A DNA stretch of 64,000 bases from Geobacteraceae bacterium (GTDB lineage: Bacteria; Desulfobacterota; Desulfuromonadia; Geobacterales; Geobacteraceae): positions 1-64,000 of the forward strand of contig JAMXLF010000031.1 in the NCBI GenBank assembly GCA_024281055.1, read 5' to 3'. The translations under genes were made by a program, and so were the position numbers. Positions 11,438 through 25,929 of the stretch are shown in pieces (the first letter of the stretch is position 1; each line of letters begins with the position of its first letter). The notes beneath the pieces are model-generated. The model searched no databases, was not told where the DNA came from, and worked only from the letters and a program-made list of their open reading frames with translations.

Positions 11438-12745
11438 CTATTCCGGCAACGTGAAAAAGAAGGTCGCTCCCTTCCCCGGCTCTCCCTCTCCCCACACCTC
11501 GCCACCGTGGCGCTGGACGATCCGGCGCACCGTCGCCAGCCCGATCCCTGTTCCGGGGAAATCGTGTGCGTTCCGGAGCCTCTGAAACGGAGTGAAGAGC
11601 TTGTCCGCGTCCTTCATGTCGAAGCCCGCCCCGTTGTCACGGACAAAGAAGGCCCGCTTTCCATCGCGGATAACCGACCCGAACTCGATGCGTGCTTCCG
11701 GCGTCATGCCCGTGTACTTCCAGGCGTTGCCGAGCAGGTTATCGAGGGCAACCTTGATCAATCGCGGATCACCCGCCGCGGCCAGATCGGGAGCGATGTC
11801 GAACTCCGCCCTCCGCTCCGGACCCGTCAGCTTCAGTACCGATGCGATTTCGCGGACCATCTGGCTCAGGTCCACCGTCTCCCGGCTGATCTCGCTCCGA
11901 ACGATCCGTGACAGGACCATCATGTCCTTGATCAGCTTGTCCATGTCCTCGTTCGCATCGCATATCACGTTGATCAGAAAACGGCCCTTTTCGTCCAGTG
12001 CCACCGGAAGATAATTATCCCGCAACATGTACGCTGCGGAAGAAGTCCGCGTGAGATAGTTTCGCATGTCGTGGGTGAGCGAATAGCCGAACGCTTCCAG
12101 CTCCCGGTTCGCCGCCGCCAGTTCCTCCGCCTTGCGCTCCAGTTCCCTCTCGAACCTCTTGTGGGCGGTTATGTCCCTCACGATGCAGACGATGCTGCTC
12201 CGGTCCACGGCCGTAACGGAGATCTCCTGGGGGAACGTGGTGCCGTCTTTTCGTCTGCCGACCGCTTCGCCCCGCCATTCGCCTTGTGCCAGGACGACGG
12301 GAAACACTTTCTCTTCGAACTTCGCTGTTTCGTCGGCACCATAGAAGAGGCGCCATGATGCGCCGAGCACCTCGGCAAGGTCGTCGTACCCGTGCAGTCT
12401 GGCCTGGGACTCGTTCAGGTAGGCGCACTCCCGCCTGCTGTCGAGGATGAAGATGCCGTCCATCGAGGCGTCCATGCCGGCCTGGTATTTAACCAGCGCC
12501 TTCTCCAGCTGCCTTCGCTTGAGCATGAGGTGGGATATGTAGGCGATGAACAGCAACAACACGCTCAGGAAAGCAAGGCGTACGGCGATCTCCCGTGAGC
12601 CGGGGGACAGTATCTGCCTGCGGACATCCCCTCCCGTCACCTCGGCGTTGATGATGCTGTCGAGCAGATAGGCCGCCACCATAAGAGTCGAGCCTGTCCC
12701 GATGATGCGGCCGACGTCACTCTTGAGAGGCCTGTTTCTCGCCAT
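11438..12745 (-). CDS. Membrane PAS sensor histidine kinase (riboswitch-controlled)
   Basis: 435 residues. An N-terminal segment holds two membrane helices (STLMVAAYLLDSI and AVRLAFLSVLLLFIAYISHL), then one PAS domain (about 100-215), a coiled region, an HisKA-like domain with YSLTHDMRNYL as phospho-His region, and an HATPase domain (DNLLGNAWKYT, RDNGAGFD, GTGIGLATV). Start at 12745 follows an AGAGGTGG site; a longer form to 12814 would begin inside the terminator hairpin. A GEMM-type riboswitch with terminator lies directly upstream, so expression should depend on a cyclic dinucleotide. Confidence 0.88.
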   Translation of the reverse strand: MARNRPLKSDVGRIIGTGSTLMVAAYLLDSIINAEVTGGDVRRQILSPGSREIAVRLAFLSVLLLFIAYISHLMLKRRQLEKALVKYQAGMDASMDGIFILDSRRECAYLNESQARLHGYDDLAEVLGASWRLFYGADETAKFEEKVFPVVLAQGEWRGEAVGRRKDGTTFPQEISVTAVDRSSIVCIVRDITAHKRFERELERKAEELAAANRELEAFGYSLTHDMRNYLTRTSSAAYMLRDNYLPVALDEKGRFLINVICDANEDMDKLIKDMMVLSRIVRSEISRETVDLSQMVREIASVLKLTGPERRAEFDIAPDLAAAGDPRLIKVALDNLLGNAWKYTGMTPEARIEFGSVIRDGKRAFFVRDNGAGFDMKDADKLFTPFQRLRNAHDFPGTGIGLATVRRIVQRHGGEVWGEGEPGKGATFFFTLPE

Positions 12746-12772
12746 GCAGCACCACCTCTGCCGGCTGCGGAG

Positions 12773-12831
12773 AAAAAGGAACAGCCGGGGCTGAAATATC
12801 GATATCGATGACATTTCGGCAACCCGGCTGT
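12773..12831 (-). terminator. Riboswitch expression platform (terminator)
   Basis: The minus strand has ACAGCCGGG (12831-12823), which is the 3' arm of the riboswitch, and its complement CCCGGCTGT (12789-12781), followed by TCC and T5 (12778-12773). Pairing of the two would terminate transcription; ligand binding would hold the first arm and let RNA polymerase pass. This predicts an ON switch. Confidence 0.75.
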
Positions 12832-12890
12832 CTCGGTGAGACCCTGTAGGCTTTCCGCCCCGCCCTCGCGAACGGTTGAGTATTATCGTC
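12810..12890 (-). promoter_or_regulatory. GEMM-I riboswitch, 3',3'-cGAMP (GEMM-Ib) type
   Basis: Minus-strand RNA shows the GEMM landmarks in order: GACGATAATACTCAACC, a hairpin with GCGA tetraloop (CCGTTC GCGA GGGCGG), GGCGGAAAGCC, a second hairpin (GGGTCT CACC GAGAC), and AGCCGGGTTGCCGAA. From memory this is very close to Geobacter cGAMP-sensing GEMM-Ib RNAs rather than to the Vibrio c-di-GMP type. It precedes the PAS kinase at 11438. Confidence 0.85.
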
Positions 12891-12918
12891 TACCATCTGA
12901 TGTTCAGAATGTTGCGCT

Positions 12919-13541: not shown

Positions 13542-13580
13542 TTGATTGTTATCCACATTTAGTTGTATGATACAACTAAA
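13542..13580 (+). promoter_or_regulatory. marR promoter with overlapping operator
   Basis: TTGATT (13542-13547), 18-bp spacer, TATGAT (13566-13571). A perfect palindrome TTTAGTTGTAT-G-ATACAACTAAA (13558-13580) covers the -10 box and touches the ATG at 13580, so the protein should repress itself, and the mRNA is probably leaderless. Confidence 0.75.
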
Positions 13581-14029
13581 TGAAACGCCCACCGACCGAC
13601 TATACCCTCGACAAGTCCCTGGGATACCTCGCGGCCCGCTTCTCCCGGGTCCTGCTACGGCGCATCAATGCAGGGCTCACCCAGAGCGGCCTTGCCATCA
13701 CCGCCGAGCAGTACTCCTTTCTCGTCCAGCTCTGGGACCGCAACGGCCTTCCCCAGGGAGTTCTGGCCGACAAGACCGCCAAGGACAAGACCACCATGGC
13801 CCGCCTTGCCGCCGGGCTTGAATCCCGCGGTTTCATCGCCCGCCTGCCGAGCCCGAGCGACGCCCGGGAACGCCTCGTCTTTCTCACCGACGAGGGGAAA
13901 AGACTCATGGACGAGGCGACGGTGCTGGTCCGGGGGATCCTGGCAGAGGCCCAGCAGGGGATCGACGAGACCCGCCTGGAGATCTGCCGGGACGTCCTGC
14001 GTAGCGCCTGCCTCAACCTGCACACGTGA
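13580..14029 (+). CDS. MarR-family transcriptional regulator
   Basis: 149 residues with the MarR winged helix: QYSFLVQLWDRNGLPQGVLA, then DKTTMARLAAGLESRGFIAR as recognition helix and start of the wing, and PSDARERLVFLTDEGKRL as wing. Such proteins repress neighbouring efflux or detoxification genes until a phenolic or similar ligand binds. No Shine-Dalgarno sequence precedes the ATG, which lies at the edge of its own operator. The Bcr/CflA exporter follows 62 bp downstream behind a second copy of the operator half-site. Confidence 0.9.
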   Translation: MKRPPTDYTLDKSLGYLAARFSRVLLRRINAGLTQSGLAITAEQYSFLVQLWDRNGLPQGVLADKTAKDKTTMARLAAGLESRGFIARLPSPSDARERLVFLTDEGKRLMDEATVLVRGILAEAQQGIDETRLEICRDVLRSACLNLHT

Positions 14030-14042
14030 TGTTATTTCGCCC

Positions 14043-14069
14043 ACAATAGTTGTATCTGGCAACTATTGT
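14043..14069. promoter_or_regulatory. Second MarR operator before the efflux gene
   Basis: ACAATAGTTG (14043-14052) and CAACTATTGT (14060-14069) form a perfect 10-bp inverted repeat. It shares TAGTTGTAT with the palindrome over the marR promoter, so the same protein is expected to bind both. Confidence 0.65.
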
Positions 14070-14091
14070 CGCCACAGGAACGTTCAGCATT

Positions 14092-15336
14092 ATGGAAACG
14101 ACCACCACCGCCCCGGCCATCCAGCCGGTTGACATGACCCGGCGCCAGCTGGCACGGCTGGTCCTGATCCTCGGCGCCCTCACCGCCTTCAGCTCCATGT
14201 CCATCGACATGTATCTCCCCGCCTTCCCGCGGATCGCCCGGGACCTCGGCGTGCCGCTCGGCACGGTGCAGCTCTCCATCTCGGCCTTCCTGTTCGGCTC
14301 GGCAGCGGGACAGCTCTTTTACGGCCCCTTGGCCGACCGGTGGGGACGACGCACCCCGCTGCTCATGGGGCTCGCGCTGTACGTCGCCTCGACGGTGGGA
14401 TGTGCCTGCGTCCGCACGGGCGAAGGGCTCCTTTTCTGGCGCGTGGTGATGGCCGTGGGGGGTGGAGCCGGCATGGTGATCTCCCGCGCCGTGGTCCGCG
14501 ACCTCTACGACACCGCCGAGGCGGCACGGATGTTCTCGCTCCTCATGCTGGTCATGGGCGCCGCGCCGATCCTGGCACCCATCGTGGGGGGGCAGCTCCT
14601 CCTGGTCACCGGCTGGCGGGGCATCTTCGCCTTCCTGGGGGTGTTCGGGCTGGTTTCTCTCTTTGCGGCGGCGCTGGGCCTTCCCGAGTCACTGCCGGAA
14701 GAGCGCCGGATCCGGCGCAGCTTCGCGGACATGGCCGCGGTCTACGGCCACCTCCTCAAGAACCGCCGCTATCTCCGCTACGCCGTCGCCCTGGGGTGCA
14801 TCGCCGGGGTCAACTTCTCCTACATCGCGGGGGCGCCCTTCCTCTTCATCGAGCTCCATGGCGTCTCCCCCCAGCACTTCGGCTTCTTCTTCGGCGCCAA
14901 CGCCTGCGGGCTGATCGCCGCCTCCCAGGTCAACCGCCGGCTTCTGCGCCGCTTCAGCGCGCAGCGCATCCTCAACGCGGCGTTCACCGTGAACGGCCTG
15001 GCGGCCCTCCTCCTCACCGCCGCCGGAGTGACGGGCGTCGGCGGTTTTCCCGCCCAGGTCGCCCTCATCTTCGTCTGCATCTGCACGACCGGACTTCTCT
15101 ATCCCAACGTGACCGCCCTCGCCATGGCCCCCTTCGACAAGGCGGCGGGGAGCGCGTCGGCACTCCTGGGGACGATCCAGTACACCCTCGGCGCCACCGC
15201 CGGAGCGGTGGTGGGGATGCTCCACAACGGAACGGCGGGGCCGATGACCGCCACCATGGCTTTCTGCGGAATCGTGGGGCTTTGTGCCGCGATCGATCGG
15301 CACCCTTTATTTCCCCGGAAAAGTCTGGTATCGTAG
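14092..15336 (+). CDS. Bcr/CflA-family multidrug efflux MFS transporter
   Basis: 414 residues with 12 predicted helices. SSMSIDMYLPAFPRIARDLG and GQLFYGPLADRWGRRTPLL are hallmarks of the Bcr/CflA drug-proton antiporter group (motif A between helices 2 and 3), and MVISRAVVRDLYDTAEAARM is the conserved motif C/loop region. Inner membrane. Start at 14092 is chosen because the upstream in-frame ATG at 14050 lies inside the operator. Probably repressed by the MarR protein next door. Confidence 0.9.
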   Translation: METTTTAPAIQPVDMTRRQLARLVLILGALTAFSSMSIDMYLPAFPRIARDLGVPLGTVQLSISAFLFGSAAGQLFYGPLADRWGRRTPLLMGLALYVASTVGCACVRTGEGLLFWRVVMAVGGGAGMVISRAVVRDLYDTAEAARMFSLLMLVMGAAPILAPIVGGQLLLVTGWRGIFAFLGVFGLVSLFAAALGLPESLPEERRIRRSFADMAAVYGHLLKNRRYLRYAVALGCIAGVNFSYIAGAPFLFIELHGVSPQHFGFFFGANACGLIAASQVNRRLLRRFSAQRILNAAFTVNGLAALLLTAAGVTGVGGFPAQVALIFVCICTTGLLYPNVTALAMAPFDKAAGSASALLGTIQYTLGATAGAVVGMLHNGTAGPMTATMAFCGIVGLCAAIDRHPLFPRKSLVS

Positions 15337-15390
15337 GGGCAGGATCATAACGTTTCCGTAAACGACATAACAGAAAAAAGGAGAGCATTC

Positions 15391-15879
15391 GTGTCGAAGA
15401 CAGCTGTCGCACAAGCAATCGCCTCACCCTGTCCGCCGGTCGACCTGAGCGGCGAAGCCGGCTGGGTCCCCTTCGATGCCCCCTCGCTGGTGGGGGAATC
15501 ACTCCGCTTCGTCTCAGGCGACCCTGAGGGGAACCGCTTCCGGGTCCGCTACTTCCGCGACGGCGAGCAGCATCTCCACGCGCGCATCTGGTTCGGGCCC
15601 GAGACCGGCGGGCCGCCGGGCCATGCCCACGGAGGCTCCGTGGCCGCGGTGATGGACGAGGCCTTGGGGCTTGCCGCGTGGGCGGCAGGATACCCGATCG
15701 TGGTCGGCAACCTCAACGTCAGTTTCCGCGCCATGCTGCCGCTGGAGAAGGTGGTCACGCTCGAAAGCCGGGTGGTCTCCGCCGAGGGACGCAAGGTGAT
15801 GGTGCATGGTCGGCTCTTTTGCGGGGAGACGGTCTATGCCGAAGGGGAATGCCTCTGCATCACCATTCCGGGGAAGTGA
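15391..15879 (+). CDS. PaaI-like hot-dog thioesterase
   Basis: 162 residues, start GTG with GGAGAGC upstream. GPPGHAHGGSVAAVMDEALGLAAW is the PaaI/4HBT signature (HGG...DE, with the catalytic acidic residue in MDEA), followed by NVSFRAMLPLEKVVTLESRV. Acts on acyl-CoA thioesters; substrate unknown. It lies 54 bp after the efflux gene and 83 bp before the OsmC gene on the same strand. Confidence 0.85.
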   Translation: MSKTAVAQAIASPCPPVDLSGEAGWVPFDAPSLVGESLRFVSGDPEGNRFRVRYFRDGEQHLHARIWFGPETGGPPGHAHGGSVAAVMDEALGLAAWAAGYPIVVGNLNVSFRAMLPLEKVVTLESRVVSAEGRKVMVHGRLFCGETVYAEGECLCITIPGK

Positions 15880-15962
15880 GACGAGGCAATTTCCACCACG
15901 GCATTTGACACCTTCTTCCGGCGACTTACACTGTATGTCAACCAGGGAGAAAGGGGGAAACC

Positions 15963-16460
15963 ATGCCTGACGTCGCCTATGTTTCGGAGGTGCGGATCGA
16001 GCGGGTGAAGGGGCCGCTGCGCCGGGCGTACCTCCCGGCGGAGAAGGAGCCGGTCCTTTTCGGCGTCCATGGGGCGGTCGCCGCCCACTACGGGGTTACC
16101 CCGGACATCTCCGAGCCACACGCCACGACCCTCGACTACGTGGTCGCGGCCGCGGCCGGCTGACTGACCGGCACCTTCGGCGGTACGCTGGAGGCACGGA
16201 AGGTGAGGATCGGCGGGGATGGACTCGCATCGGATGCCCGGGGCGAGGTGGAGCTGCAGGAGGACAACGTCCTCGTCATCAGGCGGATCCACGTGGTCTA
16301 CCGGCTGGCAACCCCGGCCGAGGACCGGGATAAGGTCGACCGGGCCTATGCCGTCCACGCGGAGCACTGCCCGGTCTACCGCTCGCTCCGGGCGGCCATC
16401 GCCATCACGACCGACCTCGACTGGCGGGAAGAGAGGCACGAACAAGCCCGCACGTCCTGA
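15963..16460 (+). CDS. OsmC-family selenoprotein (in-frame UGA at residue 67)
   Basis: Reading from ATG 15963 (GGAGAAAGGGGGAAACC upstream) the frame meets TGA at 16161-16163 and continues open to TGA at 16458-16460, giving 165 residues. The TGA falls exactly where OsmC/Ohr-like proteins carry a catalytic Cys: AAAAG-U-LTGTFGG. After it the OsmC pattern resumes (LQEDNVLVIRRIHVVYRL, then AVHAEHCPVYRSLRAAI, with the second Cys). OsmC proteins reduce organic hydroperoxides with two cysteines; here the peroxidatic one would be selenocysteine. GC-rich pairing just downstream (ACCG..CGGT within 16168-16185) could serve as the SECIS hairpin. A Sec-unaware reading would give two fragments. Confidence 0.8.
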
Positions 16461-18428: not shown

Positions 18429-18479
18429 CTCTCTCCCAGAGGGAGAGAGCATTATGTTCTCCCCCCTTTATGGGGGGAG
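18429..18479. repeat. Two GC hairpins of the REP-like family at the ligD 3' end
   Basis: CTCTCTCCC-AGA-GGGAGAGAG (18429-18449) and CTCCCCCC-TTTAT-GGGGGGAG (18459-18479) are perfect hairpins. The second lies inside the ligD reading frame, whose stop is at 18452. The stretch 18310-18428 is low-complexity C/T-rich DNA of the same kind. Confidence 0.6.
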
Positions 18480-20128
18480 GAAGGAGGGGGGCGGGAGGAG
18501 CTGGGGGAGGGTGCAAGACCATCGTTTTCCAGATTGCCGCTCTCGCGCACCACCTCGCGGGGGGCCTTGTCCTCGCGCATCCGCAGGAAGACGGGATGCC
18601 TCATGACCGCATCCTCGGTCCAGCCGGAAAACGCCACCTCGCAGACCAGCTCCGGCCGTACCCAGGTGGCCGGGGTGTTGGTTTTCGGCTCCACCCTGAA
18701 GGGGCACTCCTCCCGGACCAGGGGACGCAGCAGCTCGTGGACTTTCCGCAGATCCTCCGCACTGAAGCCCCCTCCCGCGTGGCCGATGTAGACCAGTTCG
18801 TCCCCCTCGTATACGCCAAGGACCAGGGCGCCGAACTCCCTCCCCTCCCCCCGCGGTGCCGTGAACCCCGCGATCACCCCCTCCTGGGTGAGCTGCGTCT
18901 TCACCTTGAGCCACTGCCCGCCCCGTATCCCCATCCGGTACGGGCTCCGGGCATGCTTGGCGACGATCCCCTCGAGCCCCCTTTCCCTCACGACCTTGAA
19001 AAACAGGACGCCGTCCCGTTCCACGTGGTCACAGAACCGGACCCGCGGGGAAGCCGGCAGGATCCTCTTCAGGAGGTCCTTTCGCCTGAGGAGCGGAAGG
19101 CCGGTCAGGTCGTGCCCCTGGAAGTGGAGAAGGTCGAAGACGTAGTAGAGGAGGTGCCCCCGTCCCGATTCCCGGTAATTCTGCAGCCGCTGGAAATCGG
19201 GCGCTCCCCGGTCGTCCACGACGACGATCTCGCCGTCCAGGACCGCCTCGAATCCGAAGGTCCGCAGCTCGGCCACGATGGGCGAAAATTTCTCGTTCAA
19301 CGGGAGAAGATTTCTGGAATAGAGCGCCACCTCGCCGTCCCGGACCTCGGCCACGGCCCGGTAGCCGTCCCACTTCACCTCGAAGACCCAGTCCGGGTGG
19401 TCGAAGGGCGCGCCGACCGGGGTCGCGAGCATCGGGTGGACGCCGTGGGGCATGGGGGTGAGTGGCGCATCCGCCAGCTCGTCACTCTCCTGCACCTCCC
19501 GGAGACGGACCCGCTCCAGTTTCCTCTGCCGGGATGACTCCGCCGGCCCGCCCGCGAGGAGCTCCTCCAGGGTCCGGTCCGAGACGACGGAGCGGTTCTC
19601 CGCAAGGATCTCCCCCGTGCCGGCGAAGCGGTCCCTCTTCTTCAGGAGGAGCCACGATTTTTCATCCTTCCCCGTCTTCACCAGGGCGAACTCACCCCGG
19701 AGCTTCTCTCCCGCGAGGACGAACTTCAGGTCCCCCTTGCGCAAACCCTCCAGGAGAAGCCGCTCGCTCTCGCTTCGATCCCGCGCCGCGGGGTGGCGGT
19801 AGGCACCCCGGTCCCAGACGATGACGCCCCCCGCACCGTAGTTCCCCTCCGGTATCACCCCCTCGAAATCCCCGTAATCGAGGGGATGGTCCTCGACCAT
19901 GACGGCGAGCCTCTTAACGGCGGGGTCGAGGGATGGCCCCCTGGGGACGGCCCAGCTCTTCAGCACCCCCTCCAGCTCGAGCCTGAGGTCGTAATGGAGG
20001 GTGCGGGCCGCGTGCTTGTGGACCACGAAGCGCAACTCCCCCTCCCCGTGGCGTTCGGCCGGTTCCGGTTCGGGGGTCTCCCCGAATGTGCGCTTGGCTG
20101 CGTATTCCGTTAAAAGAGGTTTCTTCAT
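18452..20128 (-). CDS. ligD: LigD-type ATP-dependent DNA ligase with 3'-phosphoesterase domain (no polymerase domain)
   Basis: 558 residues. Residues about 30-150 are the phosphoesterase domain (RFVVHKHAARTLHYDLRLEL, EDHPLDYGDFEGVIPEGNYG). From about 230 comes the ATP-dependent ligase adenylation domain, with nucleotidyl Lys in EVKWDGYRAV and motifs DGEIVV, EGIVAKHARSPY and WLKVK, then an OB domain ending WTEDAVMRHPVFLRMREDK. It seals broken ends in bacterial non-homologous end joining. The polymerase domain is a separate upstream gene, so LigD is split. The last 20 or so residues (APSPSSSRPPPSS...) are encoded by REP-like repeat DNA. Confidence 0.92.
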   Translation of the reverse strand: MKKPLLTEYAAKRTFGETPEPEPAERHGEGELRFVVHKHAARTLHYDLRLELEGVLKSWAVPRGPSLDPAVKRLAVMVEDHPLDYGDFEGVIPEGNYGAGGVIVWDRGAYRHPAARDRSESERLLLEGLRKGDLKFVLAGEKLRGEFALVKTGKDEKSWLLLKKRDRFAGTGEILAENRSVVSDRTLEELLAGGPAESSRQRKLERVRLREVQESDELADAPLTPMPHGVHPMLATPVGAPFDHPDWVFEVKWDGYRAVAEVRDGEVALYSRNLLPLNEKFSPIVAELRTFGFEAVLDGEIVVVDDRGAPDFQRLQNYRESGRGHLLYYVFDLLHFQGHDLTGLPLLRRKDLLKRILPASPRVRFCDHVERDGVLFFKVVRERGLEGIVAKHARSPYRMGIRGGQWLKVKTQLTQEGVIAGFTAPRGEGREFGALVLGVYEGDELVYIGHAGGGFSAEDLRKVHELLRPLVREECPFRVEPKTNTPATWVRPELVCEVAFSGWTEDAVMRHPVFLRMREDKAPREVVRESGNLENDGLAPSPSSSRPPPSSPHKGGRT

Positions 20129-20157
20129 GGTTTTGGAATATTGATAACCCCTCCTTA

Positions 20158-20209
20158 CCTCCCCTTAGCTTAAGGGGAGGAATATACCCCCTCTTAAGTT
20201 AAGAGGGGG
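20158..20209. repeat. Pair of perfect hairpins between the two ligD genes
   Basis: CCTCCCCTTA-GCT-TAAGGGGAGG (20158-20180) and CCCCCTCTTA-AGT-TAAGAGGGGG (20187-20209) each form a 10-bp stem. They belong to the REP-like CCTCCCC family seen elsewhere in the window and fill the 96-bp gap within the NHEJ operon. Confidence 0.7.
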
Positions 20210-20224
20210 AAAGGGGGAGTTACG

Positions 20225-21130
20225 TCACAAATGCGGCAGTCTTTGCCGCTTCGTCAGCACCTCCCGGAACAAATCCCCCTCCTTCTCCGCCCGCCTCACG
20301 GCCTCCTCATGGCCGACCTGGAACCTTTCCCGGTCCCCCTTCCCTGCCAAATTCTCCAGTTCCTCCCAGGACAGGGGAAAGGAGACGACCGGCTTTTCCC
20401 GGGCCCGCAGTGAGTAGACGCAGACCATGGTCTTTGCGGCGTCGTTCTGGGACCAGTTGATGAAGACCCGCCCGGTGCGCTGCTCCTTCGCCATTTTCGC
20501 CGTCACCAGGTCCGGGTAGTTTTTCTGCAGGGTTACCGCCACGGCCTTCGAGAAGGTACTGGTAGCCTCGAAGGTCGTCCCCGGCAAGTTCAGGGGGACG
20601 TAGATGTGAAGTCCCTTCTGGCCGGAGGTCTTGACGAAGCTCACCAGGCCGAGCCGGGAAATAATCTCCCGCAGGACCAGCGCCACCCGGGCGCACGCCA
20701 GGATGTCCGCCCCCTCGCCCGGGTCCAGGTCGAAGACCATGGCGTCGGGCGTTTCGGTTGAAGCGGCCCGGGCCAGGGGGACGTGGAGTTCGAGAGAGGC
20801 GAGGTTCGCCACCCAGATGAGGGTCGCCAGGTCGTTCACGAGGCAGACCGTCATCGGCTCGCCGTCGTCCTGGAGAAGCTCGGCCGTCTCGGTCCAGGCC
20901 GGCCGGTGGGAGGGGCAGCGCTTCTCGAAAAAGAACTCCCGGTCCACCCCGTCGGGGTAGCGCTTCAGCGTGAGCGCCCGATCTTTCAGGTGGGGGAGCA
21001 TGACCTCCGCGATCCTGCGGTAGTAGTCCAGTATATGGGCCTTGGTGACGCCAAAGGCCGGGTAGAGCACCTTGTCCAGGTTGGCGAGGGAGAGCCTTCT
21101 CCCGGCTATTTCAACGACCTGCCGGTTCAC
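20225..21130 (-). CDS. LigD polymerase domain (archaeo-eukaryotic primase type), stand-alone
   Basis: 301 residues covering the complete NHEJ polymerase module: NLDKVLYPAFGVTKAHILDYY, FFEKRCPSHRPAW, the catalytic DLDPG (AMVFDLDPGEGAD), SGQKGLHIYVPL and RTGRVFINWSQNDAAKT. It fills gaps with ribo- or deoxyribonucleotides at broken ends, cytoplasmic, with Ku and ligase. The GTG start at 21130 overlaps the stop of the second ku gene (GTGA), indicating translational coupling. Confidence 0.92.
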   Translation of the reverse strand: MNRQVVEIAGRRLSLANLDKVLYPAFGVTKAHILDYYRRIAEVMLPHLKDRALTLKRYPDGVDREFFFEKRCPSHRPAWTETAELLQDDGEPMTVCLVNDLATLIWVANLASLELHVPLARAASTETPDAMVFDLDPGEGADILACARVALVLREIISRLGLVSFVKTSGQKGLHIYVPLNLPGTTFEATSTFSKAVAVTLQKNYPDLVTAKMAKEQRTGRVFINWSQNDAAKTMVCVYSLRAREKPVVSFPLSWEELENLAGKGDRERFQVGHEEAVRRAEKEGDLFREVLTKRQRLPHL

Positions 21131-25810: not shown

Positions 25811-25860
25811 ACAAACAAAATGGCCGAGCCACCCAAATGCGTCATTTGGCAGCTCGGCCA
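25811..25860 (-). terminator. Expression platform terminator of the second riboswitch
   Basis: On the minus strand GGCCGAGC(T)GCCAAATG pairs with CATTTGG(GT)GGCTCGGCC, followed by ATTTTGTTTG. The first arm is the 3' strand of the GEMM aptamer, so ligand binding should prevent termination. Confidence 0.75.
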
Positions 25861-25929
25861 TCTCCGTCCCGAAGATCCGTGGCTTTCCGTCCCTTTCTCG
25901 CGAAAGGTTTGGCTTTATCGAAACGTCAT
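25842..25929 (-). promoter_or_regulatory. GEMM-I riboswitch (cyclic dinucleotide)
   Basis: Minus strand shows CGATAAAGCCAAACC, a hairpin with GCGA tetraloop (CTTTC GCGA GAAAGG), GACGGAAAGCC, a second variable hairpin (GGATCTTCGGGACGG region) and GGCCGAGCTGCC. This fits the GEMM-I fold. I cannot tell c-di-GMP from cGAMP with certainty; the GCGA loop and GGAAAGCC resemble the first copy at 12810. Confidence 0.75.

Follow-up and report, generated by a model that had tools for sequence, protein, structure and literature searches.

A predicted OsmC-family selenoprotein gene in a Geobacteraceae genome, with selenocysteine at the peroxidatic position

The OsmC gene and its in-frame UGA

The window, i.e. 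the whole stretch of 64,000 nucleotides of a Geobacteraceae genome analysed here, holds one OsmC-domain gene at 15963-16460 of the forward strand, whose reading frame is interrupted by a UGA. The gene starts with ATG at 15963, contains TGA at 16161-16163 (codon 67) and ends with TGA at 16458-16460, giving a predicted selenoprotein of 165 amino acids plus stop, with selenocysteine (Sec) at residue 67. The frame is open throughout the 98 sense codons between the internal UGA and the terminal stop, and the Pfam OsmC domain PF02566 matches residues 56-150 of the read-through protein, spanning the UGA (E = 1.6e-12; 48.1 bits, with a gathering cut-off of 27.5). This agrees with the claim of an earlier note on this DNA that the OsmC sequence runs on in frame past the UGA. 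A PF02566 search of the whole genome detected the window gene as the only OsmC place. Standard ORF finding returns two pieces, one of 66 amino acids (15963-16163) and one of 85 amino acids starting from GTG (16203-16460), just as had been predicted for ordinary annotation.

Upstream of the gene, a promoter-like site (15905-15932, forward strand; TTGACA-N16-TACACT) matches the consensus at 10 of 12 positions and ends 30 bases 5' of the ATG, making it a candidate promoter by consensus match only. Genes for a MarR regulator, an MFS transporter and a 4HBT thioesterase lie just upstream in the same direction (13580-15879, forward strand), and are not kept as neighbours in related loci. Elsewhere in the window there are two riboswitches of the c-di-GMP-I type on the reverse strand (12815-12891 and 25844-25922), the first of which directly precedes a PAS histidine kinase ORF (11438-12814, reverse strand). 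The LigD functions at 18452-21130 (reverse strand) are split over two ORFs, one with phosphoesterase and ligase and the other with primase-polymerase.

Codon 67 is TGA in 19 and TGT in six of 25 related loci found by a scan of named genomes, and the protein is collinear beyond this codon, which argues that the UGA is more than a chance event. The six loci with Cys, and a profile alignment that places position 67 on a Cys in the OsmC-like structures 2opl and 2onf, bear out the proposal that the TGA at 16161 occupies the peroxidatic Cys position. The two fragments returned by ORF finding are also what would be expected if the UGA were an ordinary stop that a nonsense mutation or a sequencing error had introduced into a Cys-type OsmC gene, leaving a pseudogene or two fragments. 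This is extremely improbable, as the 19 other loci with TGA at the identical codon come from 18 genomes, including those of Geobacter argillaceus ATCC BAA-1139 and Rubrobacter taiwanensis. Substitution beyond the UGA is also of the coding type, with codon changes relative to four close Sec relatives found mainly at third positions both before and after the UGA, and sel genes are present in the genome. A sequencing error, which the earlier note had allowed for, is untenable given this recurrence of TGA.

Selenocysteine machinery and the SECIS-type hairpin

The earlier note had made its reading depend on the presence of selA, selB, selC and selD, and all four are found in the window's genome. 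There is one full-length SelA only, two SelB proteins (74% identical), and two tRNA-Sec genes above the gathering score, which ARAGORN confirms with anticodon tca and which are alike at 89 of 98 positions. SelD is itself a predicted selenoprotein, since the N-terminal part of its gene (L023:1501-2421) contains an in-frame UGA (KAAGUAAKLG). As selD-like matches occur in 14 of 14 control genomes, above the cut-off in two, the count for the window's genome is restricted to the match above the cut-off. The selC and selB loci (L002, L003, L021 and L022) lie on contigs C70, C38 and C89, with one selC near one selB on C38. The doubled selB and selC reflect either a real duplication or assembly contamination (3.42%).

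The other genomes behind the named loci number 24, 18 with UGA and six with Cys at the site. SelA is found in 17 of the 18 UGA genomes and four of the six Cys genomes, with the same counts for SelB (E<=1e-60), after exclusion of additional weak matches to PF03841, probably paralogues, that occur in some genomes. tRNA-Sec (E<=1e-9, part of the candidates scored) is found in 13/18 and 4/6, respectively; the five UGA genomes with no tRNA-Sec at this threshold are MAGs for which part of the candidates was scored. In one UGA genome (G167, locus L048), likewise a MAG, tRNA-Sec is present, and no SelA or SelB was found. Two Cys genomes (G150 and G153) are without SelA, SelB and tRNA-Sec alike.

A SECIS prediction had been advised for 16161-16210, and a SECIS-type hairpin is indeed present there. 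The predicted upper hairpin (16174-16194, forward strand) has a 9-bp stem and a GUA loop, with 19 nt from UGA to loop. These values satisfy the constraints of the bacterial SECIS consensus model as given in the accessible part of its source, i.e. an apical loop of 3-9 nt, an upper stem of 4-16 bp, a G in the first two loop positions and a distance of 16-37 nt from the UGA (PMC13188914). In five Geobacter-type Sec genes a GUA or GUG loop begins 19 nt past the UGA. The 14 other Sec genes share a consensus hairpin of 7 bp with its loop after 26 nt, which appears in the individual minimum free energy (MFE) structure of 12 of the 14 and is absent in L048 and L050. Owing to these two registers, folding all 19 Sec sequences into one SECIS consensus was unsuccessful (-2.4 kcal/mol). 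The Cys forms have a weak consensus hairpin (-3.66 kcal/mol).

The choice of synonymous codons in the hairpin is unusually fixed across phyla. In the 14 non-Geobacter Sec genes the hairpin codons include GGC in 14/14 and CTG in 13/14, and GCG accounts for 29 of the 33 Ala codons at +7 to +12, compared with 67 of 230 (29%) elsewhere in those genes (binomial P 3e-12, relatedness ignored). At conserved degenerate codons, the most frequent third base has a higher mean share at +1 to +13 than before the UGA both in the Geobacter group (0.855 vs 0.758) and in the other Sec genes (0.839 vs 0.669), the corresponding values for the Cys forms being 0.624 and 0.603. Folding energy gives a mixed picture. 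For 61 nt compared with dinucleotide shuffles it is unusual (z -3.59), whereas for the 48 nt from the UGA of the window gene compared with synonymous-codon shuffles z is -0.48, and 31% of shuffles are as good. The synonymous shuffles give z values that are mostly negative and weak, which counts against a SECIS.

A suppressor or altered tRNA could in principle decode the UGA as Cys or Trp instead of Sec. Cys is the sole alternative residue seen at the site (6/25 loci), the genome encodes SelA, SelB, SelD and a tRNA-Sec whose anticodon is tca, the OsmC gene's own terminal stop is TGA, and the SECIS-type hairpin lies at the expected distance, all of which make this recoding very improbable. The UGA at 16161-16163 is almost certainly coding and read as Sec, judging from the sequences compared. 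We infer that SelB and Sec-tRNA-Sec would recognise the hairpin just 3' of this UGA and insert Sec at residue 67.

Relatives, distribution and Cys forms

A search of 147 genomes around the window's own, which is included in that number, gave a match at E<=0.001 in 10. Of these, L019 was rejected as a weak match that fails to align as a homologue. Without it and the window there are eight genomes with nine loci, four of which have UGA at the site and five Cys. The 25 loci from the scan of named genomes overlap with these nine. As the second peptide pattern of the scan assumed Cys, any bias would be only toward Cys forms. PF02566 matches all 25 members of alignment A2 at E<=0.001. Among viral contigs, 22 pattern matches yielded no confirmed relatives.

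By record title, the 19 UGA loci belong to five phyla, comprising Geobacter/Geobacteraceae, Terriglobia and Bryobacterales, Rubrobacter and other Actinomycetota, Chloroflexi, and Gemmatimonadota. Apart from the two named strains, the records are titled as MAGs, in which misbinning is possible; one titled 'Acidimicrobiia' (L040) falls among Acidobacteriota in the tree. G. argillaceus (NZ_VLLN01000026.1) carries two UGA copies of the OsmC gene (L027 and L029) about 18 kb apart on one contig. A copy in a Bryobacterales MAG (L051:5199-5442) keeps the UGA and loses the frame soon after, possibly through a deletion or assembly error. Within 5 kb of the 26 loci, window included, no neighbour family occurs at more than three, and there is no conserved neighbour pointing to a pathway; the two families reaching 3/26, dehydrogenase-like and FAD-oxidase-like as judged by eye, have no fixed placement.

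In a tree of 25 sequences with the Sec/Cys site masked, a branch supported at 100/100 separates the six Cys forms from the rest. This Cys branch is placed beside the Geobacter Sec forms, and the node uniting the two has support of 94/97, just below the program's star. The tree is midpoint-rooted for drawing only, and its sampling is modest. A single Sec-to-Cys replacement is the simplest reading of this tree, and Sec was probably replaced by Cys in one Thermodesulfobacteriota lineage. Within the sampled family, Sec looks older than Cys. On balance we favour a second OsmC selenoprotein subfamily in which Sec would be ancestral and the commonest form in at least five phyla, Cys would be one derived replacement, and one and the same homologous coding sequence would carry the SECIS loop in two registers, at a spacing of 19 nt in Geobacter and of 26 nt in the other groups. 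Two registers in one homologous gene make SECIS evolution testable.

Fold, proposed chemistry and comparison with known systems

Comparison with OsmC proteins, as the earlier note had advised, was favourable by Pfam, by profile alignment to structures and by structure matches. An AF2 model built with Cys in place of Sec has a pLDDT of 81.4 and a pTM of 0.78, with low confidence at residues 21-50 (block means 57-65). Foldseek returned 50 PDB matches at E<=0.001, of which the best are OsmC/Ohr proteins; except for two uninformative titles, all 50 are titled as OsmC, Ohr or OsmC-like/putative osmotic-stress proteins. The model thus supports an OsmC fold. Across the 25 sequences of A2, counting Sec as Cys, there is no variation at positions 67 and 136 or at Asp58. 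Cys136 (16368-16370, forward strand), in a CPV motif, is a candidate resolving cysteine; of 2opl and 2onf in the profile alignment, only 2onf has a Cys at this position. PF02566 above its gathering score, the OsmC fold and two conserved redox residues (67 and 136) together place the protein in the OsmC superfamily.

The chemistry of OsmC/Ohr proteins is established, and they are reduced by lipoyl proteins. By analogy with this chemistry, Sec67 and Cys136 may form a peroxidatic and resolving pair. The Sec67 selenolate, on a long helix (56-78), would attack a hydroperoxide, the resulting selenenic acid would be resolved by Cys136, and the Sec67-Cys136 selenenylsulfide would then be reduced by a cellular dithiol. 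Our main reading is therefore of an OsmC-fold, Sec-dependent peroxidase, with Sec inserted at residue 67 by SelB and the hairpin, resolution by Cys136, and replacement of Sec by Cys in one lineage. We give this statement as a whole a probability of roughly 0.65. Its weakest part is the peroxidase role, which is suggested by fold and residue analogy only. Alternatively, this OsmC protein could depend on Sec but use a different substrate, e.g. low-molecular-weight disulfides or persulfides, in keeping with its weak kinship to characterised OsmC models (TIGR03562, 23 bits with a cut-off of 85.8) and the lack of a neighbour gene giving a pathway. The conservation of two redox-type residues (67 and 136) and the structure matches to OsmC/Ohr peroxidases argue against such a role, which we regard as rather unlikely.

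The window protein resembles the Cys-type OsmC/Ohr peroxidases, such as E. coli OsmC (1nye/1qwi) and Thermoplasma Ta0195 (2onf), in its fold and in the position of the reactive residue. It differs from them in having Sec for Cys, and is 9-22% identical to them in the listed structure matches. Within its own subfamily, the Cys forms (L031, L032, L034 and L036-L038) are 54-62% identical, collinear and alike in motif with Cys at the site, but they have TGT at this codon, the weak hairpin and, in two of six genomes, no sel genes. The window protein scores below the cut-off of every NCBIfam OsmC model, so annotation may break such genes into fragments or label them pseudogenes. As relatives in several phyla have the same UGA, this entire branch within the OsmC family is probably easy to misannotate.

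The earlier note had also stated that OsmC-like selenoproteins are known from surveys. Such proteins do exist, but the window gene belongs to a separate subfamily. The accessible text of the Sargasso Sea and GOS surveys describes an OsmC-like selenoprotein (COG1765/PF02566) with the motif UxxT (PMC1088965; PMC2398784), whose family appears to be NCBIfam NF041052 (OsmC_like_Se). The window protein shares with it an OsmC domain, Sec at the corresponding position in the alignment and, going by the same parts of those surveys, a SECIS within the coding region (PMC1088965; PMC2398784). The motifs differ: two Sec members above the NF041052 cut-off have U-L-L-T and U-M-F-S, and the window subfamily has U-L-T-G-T or U-L-L-G-T. 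In the window protein itself (U-L-T-G-T), Thr is found at +2 and +4 and Gly at +3, which does not fit UxxT. NF041052 scores the window protein at 17.8 bits, below its curated cut-off of 95, and only 5/25 A2 members reach E<=0.001 with this model. BLASTP of the window protein against the two NF041052 Sec members gave nothing significant (best E 0.13).

The literature found to pair OsmC with selenoproteins comprises surveys and reviews of selenoproteins, a review of metalloproteins and a methods paper on thiol oxidoreductases. According to the available portion of a 2026 review, which covers 119 families and subfamilies, differing Sec motifs represent differing subfamilies. Its table, as far as accessible, has one OsmC entry (UxxT) and no second, and cites two Haft papers, which might mention the present subfamily. 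The accessible part of a 2006 survey listing Geobacter selenoproteins does not mention OsmC. Given the failure to reach the NF041052 cut-off, the lack of BLASTP support and the single OsmC entry in the review table, the window gene apparently represents a new, unlisted OsmC selenoprotein subfamily (ULTGT/ULLGT), separate from the UxxT proteins. This would add a widely spread redox selenoprotein subfamily, whose window member lies under the cut-off of all NCBIfam OsmC models, to the known OsmC proteins.
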